Origin: Ignavibacteria bacterium
Lineage (GTDB): Bacteria; Bacteroidota; Ignavibacteria; Kapaibacteriales; UBA961
DNA length: 64,000 bases
Assembly (NCBI GenBank): GCA_016873735.1
Contig: VGWD01000002.1
Span: 124,001-188,000 of the forward strand
Direction of reading: 5' to 3'
Part shown: positions 39,706 to 47,063 of the stretch, in pieces
How positions within the stretch are numbered: the first letter of the stretch is position 1
Layout of the letters: every line of letters begins with the position of its first letter
Position numbers and translations under genes: made by a program
Notes under the pieces: generated by a model
Databases searched by the model: none
What the model was told of the DNA's origin: nothing
The model's input: the letters and a program-made list of their open reading frames with translations, nothing else

Positions 39706-39719
39706 TATACATTTTACAT

Positions 39720-39825
39720 CATGAGGTGCCTCTTTTGAGAGGAGAATAGGGAAACCCGTGAAAATCGGGTACTGTGGCGCAACTGTGAACCATCTTTGAT
39801 GGAAAGTCAGGAGACCTGCCTCATG
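39720..39825 (+). ncRNA. Cobalamin (adenosylcobalamin-type) riboswitch
   Basis: The aptamer is closed by CATGAGG (39720-39726) and CCTCATG (39819-39825). Inside are GGAGAATAGGGAAACCCGTG, ATCGGGTACTGTGGCGCAA and the B12 box AGTCAGGAGACCTGCC, all classic. It lies 144 bases before the start of the propeller gene. Vitamin B12 binding should switch that gene off; see the RBS-pairing entry downstream. Confidence 0.95.
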
Positions 39826-39930
39826 TTTTTACATCATTGTCTTTAAGACAACATTCGCGCTCTACGAATGAGATGGAAAGCTCCATTGTATTCTTCACCA
39901 ACATGCATTTGTTGGCTAATTTGAAGTCTG

Positions 39931-39965
39931 GACTCCTTTCTCATTAGGGCATAATCAATGGAGTC
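39931..39965 (+). promoter_or_regulatory. Ribosome-site sequester of the B12 riboswitch
   Basis: GACTCC (39931-39936) is exactly complementary to GGAGTC (39960-39965), whose GGAG is the ribosome site 6 bases before the ATG at 39969. This gives a simple switch: free ribosome site when B12 is scarce, hidden when B12 is bound. Other small hairpins lie between (CATTCG/CGAATG; CAAC/GTTG). No T-tract terminator is seen, so translation control is more likely than transcription control. The competing pairing is not worked out. Confidence 0.6.
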
Positions 39966-39968
39966 AAC

Positions 39969-41309
39969 ATGAAATCCTTCTCTTTGCTATGCAGCATTTT
40001 TCTATTCTCTACAAATCTATCCTCCAAAGAACCGCAATTGATTCCAACCGGATATCAACCATTGGCAATACATGCAGTTGCAGACACCATACATGTTTTT
40101 TGCAATGGAAATGATATTGACTTTGATGGCGTATATGAACCCTTGTCCGGTGAGAAACCTGCCATGTGGTATATATATGATGCAAATACAAATTTGCCTA
40201 TAAAAGCAATCATTATGGAGAAAGGCTATTTTGACGTACCTTTCAGACCCGGCTTATCATCCACGCGATTATACCTTCCACGTCAAAACAAGATAGAGGT
40301 CTATGACTTATCAACCCAAGAGATGGTTGATTCATCGCTATTGCAATTACCTGATCAAAAGTCCAAGATTTGCGGCATTCATGTAGTCAGTACTCAGCAG
40401 TCAGGTATGAGTAATGATGTTGCATTGGCAATTTCTCACAAAACTTCATTTACAGAACCTGGGCAAATAGAAATTTTCAGTCTAATTTCAGGACAAACAT
40501 TACTTCAAAAAAAAGTTGGAATCAATCCGCAGATGATACGTACGTATAAGAATTTGTTGGGTCAGATGGAATTTGCAGTACTGTGTGAAGGAACATTTGG
40601 GGGTGGTAATTCCGCATTATATGTGATCAATACAGATTCTCAATCCGGAGTACCGAATATGACCATTCTTGAGCTTGGAGATACCGGTAATCATTTTATT
40701 ATTCAGGATCAGCTCGCTTTGACAGTCATGAATGGCTCACATGAAATCATACCGATTAATCTTGCAACAAAAACAGTTCTTCCAAGTATACCTGTGGGAA
40801 CAAGCGGCTATGATGGTCCGCGAGAAATCATAGTTGATACATTAGAAAACAGGGTATATGTATCAACATATGCTTCAGATATTCGCATAGGCTCCTTCAC
40901 AGATGGTACTGTTATTGGGCAATGGTTCCCAAAAGGCAAACCGGAAGGAATGGCCTTTATAAAGAACTCATTGTGGGTATGCAATGCATACAAAAGTGGA
41001 GATTATGCACCGGATTCTACGATAGCTCTTTTTACGCTCGATGAATCAACATCTATTCGCAAAAACAACGATTTATCTTTGGAAGCAGATATTTCAATAT
41101 ATGAAGGATATTGCATGATAAAGACACATATGGAAGTTGAAGATGTTGATTATACTGTGATGAATACAAAAGGTGCCGTGGTTTCACAAGGAAGATTCAC
41201 TGGCAAAGAACATAGATTTTCACTTGCAGGCTTACCCCATGGCGTTTATGTGATCTCTCTCAATTCACCGAAGATATCCTTGAGCACATTGGTGATATTC
41301 AGGGAGTAA
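39969..41309 (+). CDS. BtuG-like surface beta-propeller with T9SS sorting domain
   Basis: A 446-residue exported protein under a cobalamin riboswitch. The signal peptide ends near residue 19. About 22-365 form a YncE-type beta-propeller (repeats such as STRLYLPRQNKIEVYDLSTQ; NRVYVSTYASDIRIGSF), with an acidic loop NGNDIDFDGVYEP near residue 45. The last 80 residues are a T9SS type A sorting domain (YTVMNTKGAVVSQGRF; LAGLPHGVYVISLN). In Bacteroides, BtuG propellers are surface lipoproteins that bind vitamin B12 for BtuB. Here the anchor would be T9SS instead. B12 binding is inferred from the riboswitch, the fold and the cobC neighbour; no btuB is in the window. Confidence 0.8.
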   Translation: MKSFSLLCSIFLFSTNLSSKEPQLIPTGYQPLAIHAVADTIHVFCNGNDIDFDGVYEPLSGEKPAMWYIYDANTNLPIKAIIMEKGYFDVPFRPGLSSTRLYLPRQNKIEVYDLSTQEMVDSSLLQLPDQKSKICGIHVVSTQQSGMSNDVALAISHKTSFTEPGQIEIFSLISGQTLLQKKVGINPQMIRTYKNLLGQMEFAVLCEGTFGGGNSALYVINTDSQSGVPNMTILELGDTGNHFIIQDQLALTVMNGSHEIIPINLATKTVLPSIPVGTSGYDGPREIIVDTLENRVYVSTYASDIRIGSFTDGTVIGQWFPKGKPEGMAFIKNSLWVCNAYKSGDYAPDSTIALFTLDESTSIRKNNDLSLEADISIYEGYCMIKTHMEVEDVDYTVMNTKGAVVSQGRFTGKEHRFSLAGLPHGVYVISLNSPKISLSTLVIFRE

Positions 41310-41353
41310 TCGACCGGGTATCAAGTTTCTCTCTGAAAAGGGAAGAATTATGG

Positions 41354-41361
41354 TATTTTTG
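41354..41361 (+). promoter_or_regulatory. Candidate -7 element (TATTTTTG) for cobC-rodA
   Basis: Exact TAnnTTTG match 24 bases before cobC, leaving a short leader. If used, cobC and rodA can be made without passing the B12 riboswitch. Confidence 0.35.
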
Positions 41362-41384
41362 CATATCATTGACTTCTACTCGGA

Positions 41385-41957
41385 ATGAGAATGGATCTGT
41401 TTTTTTTAAGACATACGACCGTTGCCGTTGATAATGATGTGTGTTATGGTCAAACCGAGATTCCTGTTGCTTCAAGTTTTTTACAAGAGGCAGCTGATAC
41501 CATGAAATTGGTCCCGGATAAAATGCATGCCGTGTATTTTTCGAGTCCTACTCGCCGTTGCATACAATTAGCTGAATTCATCAGTAAAAGACCTGCAATG
41601 CAGGATAATCGTTTGGCTGATTTGAACTTTGGTGCATGGGAACGAAAAAAATGGGATGAAATTGAAGAACAGGAATTGGAATCCTGGATGAGCGATGTCA
41701 TGTATCAAGCACCACCTGATGGTGAATCATATGAGCAATTGATTTTGAGAATCAAAGATTTCTTTGAAGAAATAATACTCAAGAATTACAAAACAGTGGT
41801 CATTTCAACACATGCGAGTGTGATTCGAGCATTATTGTCTTATGTCTTGGAGATTCCGTATCAGCGAACATTCGACATGCAAATCGCTTTCGGAAGCATT
41901 ACAAAAATCAGTGTAGATGGTCAGTCGGTAATTGTAGAATATATCAATCGAGTATAA
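41385..41957 (+). CDS. cobC: Alpha-ribazole phosphatase-like histidine phosphatase
   Basis: A 190-residue histidine phosphatase. Catalytic motif FFLRHTTV (RHT in place of the usual RHG, as in other Bacteroidota CobC), then DVCYGQTEIP, the CYGQT hallmark of CobC, SSPTRRCIQLAE, and the second His in VVISTHASVIRALL. CobC removes phosphate from alpha-ribazole phosphate in the lower-ligand steps of cobalamin assembly or salvage. Its place after a B12-controlled propeller supports this. No other cob genes are in view. Confidence 0.86.
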   Translation: MRMDLFFLRHTTVAVDNDVCYGQTEIPVASSFLQEAADTMKLVPDKMHAVYFSSPTRRCIQLAEFISKRPAMQDNRLADLNFGAWERKKWDEIEEQELESWMSDVMYQAPPDGESYEQLILRIKDFFEEIILKNYKTVVISTHASVIRALLSYVLEIPYQRTFDMQIAFGSITKISVDGQSVIVEYINRV

Positions 41958-44927: not shown

Positions 44928-47063
44928 TCATTGGATGTATTTCAACAATTGCACACCATGATTTGTACGAATAGACACAATATACATACCGGTTGGCAAC
45001 TTTGGAAGTTCGACTTCTCTGAACTCTCCTGTATTGACCCAACATTGTTCTGTGAAAAGGGTCGCGCCGGTAAGATCATGAATATGAATGAAGGCATGCG
45101 AATATTCGGCTGATTGAATCGAAAGATACATATCATCGCCAAAACCTCGAATTTTAGCCATCATGGGTGTATGTTGTAATTCGTCCATGGATACATACAT
45201 GCCTGAGGCGGTATCTGCTTCAAGCAAAATATCGGAACGTGGGTCAATAAGAGCTTTTTTCAACGGTGATTGTAGTTTGATATACCCTTCGTGAGATAGC
45301 GAATTCATTACAGTATTGTATTGTATGGTATCTTTTTCACCTATGAATGCAATAGTCAGAGGAAAATGAAATACTTCCGGTACATCTTTTCCAGACTGTG
45401 TTTGACGTATGACAAAATGTACATATGGTTCATTTTTATCATTGAGATGCTCACGCAATACAGTGAATTTCAATTGTGGATGTCCACGTTTCATCAACCA
45501 TTGATCAAAGTAAATGTCATAAGGTACAGCAGGATTCGGTGCCAATATTTTGAATATCTGCTTGAATTGTTCTGTGTTTGCATTCCCATAGGCATATGTT
45601 TTTAGATAGGTACGAATTGTAGGATAAAATATAGAGTCACCAAGCATGGTTCGAAGCATATGATATACCCAACTTGCCTTTGCATATGTTGTTGCATAAT
45701 TGAATACATTTTCGATTGGTATACCAAAAATTGGAGGCTGAAGATTTCCAGCATTGATGCGGAGATAATCATTCCTTTTAGTTCTCATCATTGCAATGTA
45801 TTCCGGATATCCACCCCAGGTTTCATACCAAAGAGCTTCCCCCCAAGTTCCTGCTCCTTCATTCAACCATATTTCTCCCCATGTCTCACAAGTAACCAAA
45901 TCCCCAAACCATTGATGCATCACCTCATGTGCCAATCCATTGCTGGACCAACCCCTTAGCCATGTTCGGTTTATGGTGGACATACGTTGATGTTCCATTC
46001 CGCCGGCCCAAAATGGTTGGGTAGCCGTATGACCATATGTTTTGAAGGGATATGGTCCGAATAAAGGGATATATCCTGTTATCATGCTTGGTGTATAGCT
46101 CAATGCATGTTGAGCATTATACTCGCTGCCATCTGTTTTCTTACCTTCAAAATCCTTTTTCCAAACATAATTGTAAATCGGAATGGAATCATTGGAATTC
46201 GGAATCTTTGCCCATAATGTAAAATCCACAAAACGTGATGCATTCACAACCATCAGATATGTGGGAATCAATGTTGTATCGTAAAAAGAAAAGTCTCTGT
46301 ATAATGAAGTCCCAGACTCACTACCGATGTTCATTGACATTAAATCGCCATTCGATGTTACGCGAATATTGTCTGTATCAGAAATCGTAGAATCAAAAGG
46401 AACGCGAACTGTTATTCTTGCTCTCGCTTTATCGTCAGGTCTGTCATTGCATGGCATCCAATATCGCGCATCTTCTGGTTGACTCATGACATAGGCAAGG
46501 TCTTCTTCCACGAAATTAGAATCGAGTCCCTGGAATTTTCTGACAAACATACCTTTGGGATAATAGTAAAACCCATTCTTTGCATCACCAATATATGTAT
46601 ACCAAATGTCCAGTAAATGGGTATCAAGAGTAATTGGTTGTGTAAGAGTAAAGGACCATGATCCATTCTCCGGTTGTTGTATTGCCGCTTTTGGCAGCAT
46701 TACTCCATCCAGTTTGACGGAATCAATATTCATTGTTGCGCCATTCATTATTGTGGTGCTCAATGCTTTAGTAGGTATAAATGTGAGTGTGTTTTTTCCG
46801 GAATACCTATAGGTCGGCATAACAGTGTCAACTGTTGCAAATGGCAAACGCCAGTCCATGAACAAATCATACGTTAATACATCAATATCGGATGTAGTTG
46901 ACAATGTTTTTTCAGGTTTGACTTTGTCGAAAGCATGAGCTCTCGAACAGACATGGTATTTATGTTCCTGATTCTCGGGGCTGAGTATGGCAGGCAGTTG
47001 CTGTGAAACTAACGTTGCACATAGGCAAGCAAATTGTATGATGCTTAAGAATATATGTTTCAT
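44928..47063 (-). CDS. M1-family metallo-aminopeptidase with T9SS sorting domain
   Basis: A 711-residue secreted peptidase. Signal peptide about 1-20. The exopeptidase motif reads AGGMEHQRMS (GxMEx form), and the zinc site is a perfect HExxH-x18-E: HEVMHQWFGD then WLNEG near residues 378-401. The last 80 residues are a T9SS type A sorting domain (AFIHIHDLTGATLF; LPKLPTGMYIVSI). It likely trims peptides on the cell surface or outside the cell. Third clear T9SS cargo in the window; directly between rlpA and ptsI. Confidence 0.93.
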   Translation of the reverse strand: MKHIFLSIIQFACLCATLVSQQLPAILSPENQEHKYHVCSRAHAFDKVKPEKTLSTTSDIDVLTYDLFMDWRLPFATVDTVMPTYRYSGKNTLTFIPTKALSTTIMNGATMNIDSVKLDGVMLPKAAIQQPENGSWSFTLTQPITLDTHLLDIWYTYIGDAKNGFYYYPKGMFVRKFQGLDSNFVEEDLAYVMSQPEDARYWMPCNDRPDDKARARITVRVPFDSTISDTDNIRVTSNGDLMSMNIGSESGTSLYRDFSFYDTTLIPTYLMVVNASRFVDFTLWAKIPNSNDSIPIYNYVWKKDFEGKKTDGSEYNAQHALSYTPSMITGYIPLFGPYPFKTYGHTATQPFWAGGMEHQRMSTINRTWLRGWSSNGLAHEVMHQWFGDLVTCETWGEIWLNEGAGTWGEALWYETWGGYPEYIAMMRTKRNDYLRINAGNLQPPIFGIPIENVFNYATTYAKASWVYHMLRTMLGDSIFYPTIRTYLKTYAYGNANTEQFKQIFKILAPNPAVPYDIYFDQWLMKRGHPQLKFTVLREHLNDKNEPYVHFVIRQTQSGKDVPEVFHFPLTIAFIGEKDTIQYNTVMNSLSHEGYIKLQSPLKKALIDPRSDILLEADTASGMYVSMDELQHTPMMAKIRGFGDDMYLSIQSAEYSHAFIHIHDLTGATLFTEQCWVNTGEFREVELPKLPTGMYIVSIRTNHGVQLLKYIQ

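Follow-up and report, generated by a model that had tools for sequence, protein, structure and literature searches.

The window considered here, a stretch of 64,000 nucleotides (contig C2, positions 124001-188000) of a Bacteroidota genome of 2.26 Mb (G000), contains a gene for a 446-aa protein for which both homology to BtuG and a circular permutation with respect to it are well supported. The protein ends with a predicted sorting domain of the type IX secretion system (T9SS) and is encoded downstream of a cobalamin (B12) riboswitch; its role is probably that of an extra surface B12 trap, a permuted and T9SS-tethered BtuG derivative that would serve the BtuB/BtuG system. The B12-capture proteins of Bacteroidota known to us are lipoproteins. 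In the literature searched (most subscription papers lie outside it), no T9SS-exported or permuted BtuG is described, nor is a T9SS cargo predicted to bind a vitamin under a B12 riboswitch; a previous reading of the DNA, made from the sequence only, likewise knew of no described T9SS-secreted B12-binding propeller.

The riboswitch locus and its leader

The riboswitch aptamer is found at 39707-39837 on the forward strand, where the covariance model RF00174 is matched over its full length (1-189) with 79.7 bits against a gathering threshold of 31.5 (E 5.5e-18); compared with other members of RF00174, it is far over threshold and has no unusual feature. Its 5' end lies 13 nt before the start given by the sequence-only reading (39720) and 2 nt past a Wzz-like gene, an exopolysaccharide chain-length gene. 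The propeller gene (39969-41309) follows on the same strand, as identified by its open reading frame and profiles, and is in turn followed by a gene for a CobC-like histidine phosphatase (41385-41957, forward strand; PF00300, 105.5 bits) and by rodA; two congeneric species (G220, G204) share this arrangement of wzz, riboswitch, propeller, cobC and rodA. The earlier assignment of cobC holds in part: a CobC-like phosphatase is indeed the next gene, but its full-length match to TIGR03162 (156.5 bits) stays just below the cut-off of 162.9 and the equivalog threshold is not reached. Since, moreover, no CobS was found by genome search in G000, the role of the phosphatase is uncertain. It is located directly 3' of the propeller gene throughout the genus despite the absent CobS, and it may act on a substrate other than alpha-ribazole phosphate.

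Downstream of the aptamer, inverted repeats predict an expression-platform hairpin (39931-39965, forward strand), in which GACTCC (39931-39936) pairs with GGAGTC (39960-39965), thus sequestering the ribosome-binding site of the propeller gene (GGAG, 39960-39963); a competing 8-nt pairing can form between CTCCATTG (39881-39888) and CAATGGAG (39956-39963). A hairpin of altered sequence occupies the equivalent position in two related leaders, and the changes seen in one congener include the exchange of a C-G with a U-A pair. The fold of the whole leader RNA is unexceptional (z -1.43), so that the switching model is based on local pairings only; these fit a translational switch, which we propose as the mode of control.

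Fold, blade order and anchor of the propeller protein

A search with the single sequence gave no convincing match to curated propeller families, and against the PDB the window protein alone matched, weakly, only BtuG-type chains (E about 0.5). Conversely, a family profile built from 23 relatives retrieves BtuG chains as top matches (8ptd, 2.5e-22; 8blw, 2.9e-22; 3dsm, 1.1e-10); the entries 8BLW, 8BMX/8BMY, 8OKV, 8P97 and 3DSM correspond to BtuG1, BtuG2 or BtuG3 (PMC10404256). The identity to BtuG is 18% in the profile alignment. The relationship with BtuG that had been suggested from the sequence is therefore substantiated by solved BtuG structures, 2.5e-22 being the best value, and homology is well supported at the sequence level. 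Structure models were of low confidence: AF2 gave a pLDDT of 39.7 for the full protein as a single sequence, with the T9SS tail as the best-folded part, and a pLDDT of 55.4 (pTM 0.54) for residues 23-366 with one homolog, low values that are explained by the supply of only one homolog. Foldseek and VIA-align searches with the low-confidence model returned propellers of all kinds, with no BtuG among the matches listed, an outcome that carries no weight at such a confidence.

The matches to BtuG fall on two exchanged halves. Family positions 183-340 correspond to BtuG residues 9-176, while positions 10-181 correspond to BtuG 171-338, the pattern expected of a circular permutation. In the window protein, residues 22-196 (40032-40556) represent the C-terminal half of BtuG, approximately blades 5-7, and residues 197-366 (40557-41066) its N-terminal half, approximately blades 1-4, which contains the motifs EGTFGGGN, GDTGNH, NGSH, GTSGYDGPRE and KPEG; both assignments come from a BtuG HMM built from 26 BtuG-type proteins of the phylum. 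At the junction, VGINPQMIRTYKNLLGQMEFAVLCEGTFGGGN, the motif usual at the C-terminus of BtuG lipoproteins (VGINP...) is directly fused to their usual N-terminal motif (VLCEGxFGxxN). When the propeller is rotated in 5-residue steps, the score with this HMM rises from 84.5 bits in the linear form, covering half of the model, to 118.1 bits (HMM 18-329) with a cut near residue 197; the optimum is at the equivalent place in most relatives, whereas for the 26 ordinary BtuG-type proteins it is reached with no rotation or with one of at most 5 residues. Hence the window protein departs from the blade order of BtuG, whose N-terminus lies at blade 1, and needs a rotation at about residue 197 to recover it. 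Taken separately, the N-terminal half (22-196) matches HMM 184-329 with 24.9 bits and the C-terminal half (197-366) matches HMM 18-179 with 87.1 bits. Profile-profile comparison (hhalign) behaves in the same way, passing from 149 columns and a score of 215 for the linear profile to 300 columns and a score of 308 (E 3e-43) for the rotated one; a rotated family profile also aligns over its whole length with 12 BtuG-type chains, including residues 3-314 of BtuG2.

Slippage between blade repeats could in principle mimic such a result; it was ruled out by blade-order controls, since the gain is all or mostly gone when the thirds of the N-terminal half are re-ordered, when the C-terminal half is repeated or when the residues are shuffled. 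Three divergent members of the family (L029, L030, L032) do not clearly show the permutation, which on sequence grounds is nonetheless well supported for the window propeller. As a consequence of the permutation, the exit of the tether from the disc is at another blade than in BtuG; it would emerge after the blade-4 equivalent, roughly at the disc edge opposite to the lipid anchor of BtuG. Tandem double permuted propellers of about 750-900 aa are present in some relatives (L020, L024, L025, L026, L031). They would offer a plausible route to the permutation, possibly as intermediates or as derivatives.

The propeller portion, of about 345 residues, is preceded by a Sec-type signal (approximately residues 1-20, 39969-40028); its sequence, MKSFSLLCSIFLFSTNLSSKEP, appears by inspection of the translation to be hydrophobic and has no lipobox, so that the protein lacks the lipoprotein signature of BtuG. 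At the other end, a T9SS type A C-terminal sorting domain spans approximately residues 372-446 (41082-41306): TIGR04183 is weakly matched by residues 389-438 with 24.0 bits, just over the cut-off of 23, while PF18962 gives 23.2 bits, below the Pfam cut-off of 27. At an E-value of 0.01 TIGR04183 recognizes only 13 of 23 family members; the domain can be aligned across the family. Both the succession of cobalamin riboswitch and propeller with a type A tail and the use of this tail rather than a lipid as the anchor, as initially read from the DNA, are thus confirmed, with RF00174 and TIGR04183 over their cut-offs and no lipobox. With type A cargo proteins the window protein shares the signal peptide and the sorting domain, and the T9SS core/translocon gene sprA is present in the genome (2348-aa frame, 702 bits); it differs from them as a predicted vitamin-binding cargo under a B12 riboswitch. 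A T9SS-dependent location at the cell surface is predicted for the propeller protein. Elsewhere in the window, on the reverse strand (44928-47063), an M1-family aminopeptidase also has a T9SS-like C-terminal tail, which matches TIGR04183 below the cut-off (19.5 bits).

In BtuG2 all the 13 hydrogen bonds to B12 are made by blades 1-4, and the ligand is held by the beta5A loop and by the loop Asn54-Thr64 (PMC10404256). In the family alignment, conservation is highest in the half of the window protein that corresponds to blades 1-4. Where BtuG2 (3dsm) has the beta5A loop, TDGGYEGSPYGYEAP, the window protein has instead a conserved acidic loop, GNDIDFDGVYEPLSGEKPAMW (residues 46-67, 40104-40169), placed by family alignment columns and by alignment with BtuG2; this loop is of the D-x-D-x-D-G type, it takes the position of the loop that clamps B12, and within it D49 is invariant and W67 nearly so. 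One may speculate that it binds a metal. Binding and delivery of B12 by the window protein are predicted from these comparisons.

Carrier genomes and linkage to B12 uptake genes

Among 395 sampled Bacteroidota genomes, the family was found in 28, of which 27 (including G000) belong to the same order and one to the same class; the remaining matches in the phylum are mostly ordinary BtuG-type proteins, aligned by one half, and some tail-only matches. In 26 of the 28 members the gene is preceded on its own strand by an RF00174 aptamer, at a distance of 62-358 bp; since the genomes of carriers have just one or two cobalamin riboswitches each, this association is not due to chance. In 11 relatives the propeller gene shares its operon with the gene for a BtuB-type receptor, identified as a TonB receptor by Pfam for two of these BtuBs and by homology for the others: five genomes (G160, G279, G109, G196, G314) have the order riboswitch, propeller, BtuB, BtuH-like protein, BtuG, and in six further ones the propeller adjoins BtuB or is separated from it by one gene. 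The expectation that related genomes would keep the riboswitch-propeller order, and the family its company of B12 transport genes, is borne out by these figures. The earlier remark that btuB is not nearby holds for G000 and two congeners, where the propeller gene is not beside btuB, as also in family f2; it does not extend to the 11 relatives with both genes in one operon.

In family f2 (L058, L059, L062) the propeller gene is followed, in place of btuB, by genes for proteins of about 1060 and about 200 aa, which in L059 are identified by Pfam as a VPS10/BNR propeller and a PAP2 protein, respectively; the VPS10/BNR protein was considered as a partner and set aside. Close to the propeller gene of G059, at L063:11573-14749, there is a frame starting with MSTVLGLDIGSNSVGWALVD that is Cas9-like in look.

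All of the 28 carriers have BtuB, in most cases with one receptor of this type per genome, and all of them have a near full-length BtuG-type frame, in the operon or elsewhere; in three (G385, G105, G377) the BtuG-type match contains one in-frame stop. In G000 the BtuB-type receptor is found at C5:23244-25202 and an ordinary BtuG, with the lipobox LLSSC, at C9:66859-67899. The sequence-only reading had proposed that the window protein performs the job of BtuG in its stead; this is ruled out by the ordinary BtuG-type protein of every carrier, and the presence of BtuG together with BtuB indicates an addition, not a replacement. Comparison also largely answers which receptor would be the partner of the window protein, namely the BtuB on C5, because relatives of this receptor share an operon with the propeller protein elsewhere. 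In one genome of the same family (G168), riboswitch, propeller, BtuB and full-length BtuG are jointly absent.

Proposed role in B12 capture

With BtuG of B. thetaiotaomicron (BtuG1/2/3; PDB 8BLW, 8BMX, 8BMY, 8OKV, 8P97; apo form 3DSM) the window protein thus shares a homologous propeller, control by a cobalamin riboswitch, linkage to btuB in relatives and, as expected, the ligand; it differs in its permuted blade order, in having a T9SS C-terminal domain and no lipobox where BtuG has an N-terminal lipid, in the acidic loop found at the beta5A clamp and in its co-occurrence with a BtuG. On B12 scarcity, the riboswitch would free the ribosome-binding site and the propeller protein would be made; it would then cross the inner membrane via Sec and the outer membrane via the T9SS, to be held at the surface by its sorting domain. 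There the propeller face, corresponding to the half that gives all the hydrogen bonds to B12 in BtuG, would capture corrinoids and hand them to a BtuB-type receptor with its BtuG lid, both encoded elsewhere in the genome. Translational control, surface location, B12 binding and hand-off are all predicted properties of the window protein.

BtuG is a stable lid on BtuB, and its lipid anchor and linker, which precede blade 1, serve as a hinge on the receptor (PMC10404256). The window protein could itself be a lid or a subunit of the BtuB transporter, capping BtuB in alternation with BtuG or as a second layer; indeed, it shares the fold family of this lid, in several relatives its gene is directly beside btuB, usually between riboswitch and btuB, and most carriers have a single BtuB of this type. 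We regard this as rather unlikely, since an ordinary BtuG-type protein occurs in the same genomes and often in the same operon, linkage to btuB is missing in the window's genus and in family f2, and the permutation relocates the tether, which no longer sits at the edge on which the BtuG linker hinges; a tether at the opposite edge makes the same hinged lid unlikely and an extra trap or relay more likely. A B12-regulated surface protein that has lost B12 binding, with the BtuG-derived propeller turned to adhesion, sensing or enzyme activity, is quite improbable: replacement of the B12-clamping loop by the D-x-D-x-D-G type loop, the low identity to BtuG and the tandem double propellers of relatives would agree with it, but conservation is strongest in the half to which B12 binds in BtuG, and the linkage to B12 riboswitches is constant, often with btuB, the whole set being jointly absent in G168.

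Thus, an extra surface trap that feeds the BtuB/BtuG pair is the preferred role. B. thetaiotaomicron has further B12-binding lipoproteins at its surface, BtuH, BtuJ and BtuK, of which BtuJ is an augmented jelly roll (PMC8941943, PMC12751083, PMC13398666); likely in common with the window protein they have the function of extra surface B12 binders encoded in riboswitch loci beside BtuB/BtuG, but they are lipoproteins, whereas the window protein combines the permuted propeller of a BtuG relative with a T9SS tail. For a broader proposal the case is evenly balanced, namely that the family represents an order-wide new class of B12 surface receptor, in which BtuG was permuted, perhaps via tandem double propellers such as those that persist in the order, and re-tethered by the T9SS at the opposite edge, sharing one BtuB with ordinary BtuG so that B12 would be relayed by two BtuG-derived discs that differ in geometry.

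If the proposed role is correct, B12 capture would be tied to type IX secretion. The window protein also represents a natural circular permutation of a well-studied receptor, in which the exit point of the tether on the disc is altered; a BtuG tethered from another edge represents a direct test case for the lid model of BtuG and BtuB, with built-in controls, since both ordinary BtuG and BtuB are retained in carriers and the whole set is missing from one relative. B12 scavenging would also be extended to lineages where the propeller gene has no informative annotation, because the permutation masks full-length homology in ordinary searches.

The only other cobalamin riboswitch found in G000 (41.1 bits) is on contig C12, where it precedes genes for a membrane protein of the DUF6580 family and for a BtuH-like protein that ends in a T9SS tail (C12:2291-4022, locus L003), an arrangement also present in two congeners. 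B12-binding domains of the B12-enzyme type are present in the genome, and for a FecCD/BtuC-type permease G000 gives only a Pfam match below the cut-off; the riboswitch-controlled DUF6580 protein is a candidate for the passage of B12 across the inner membrane. DUF6580 genes adjoin BtuG genes in G192 and G361, and DUF6580 is retained in G168, which is without the B12 uptake set.
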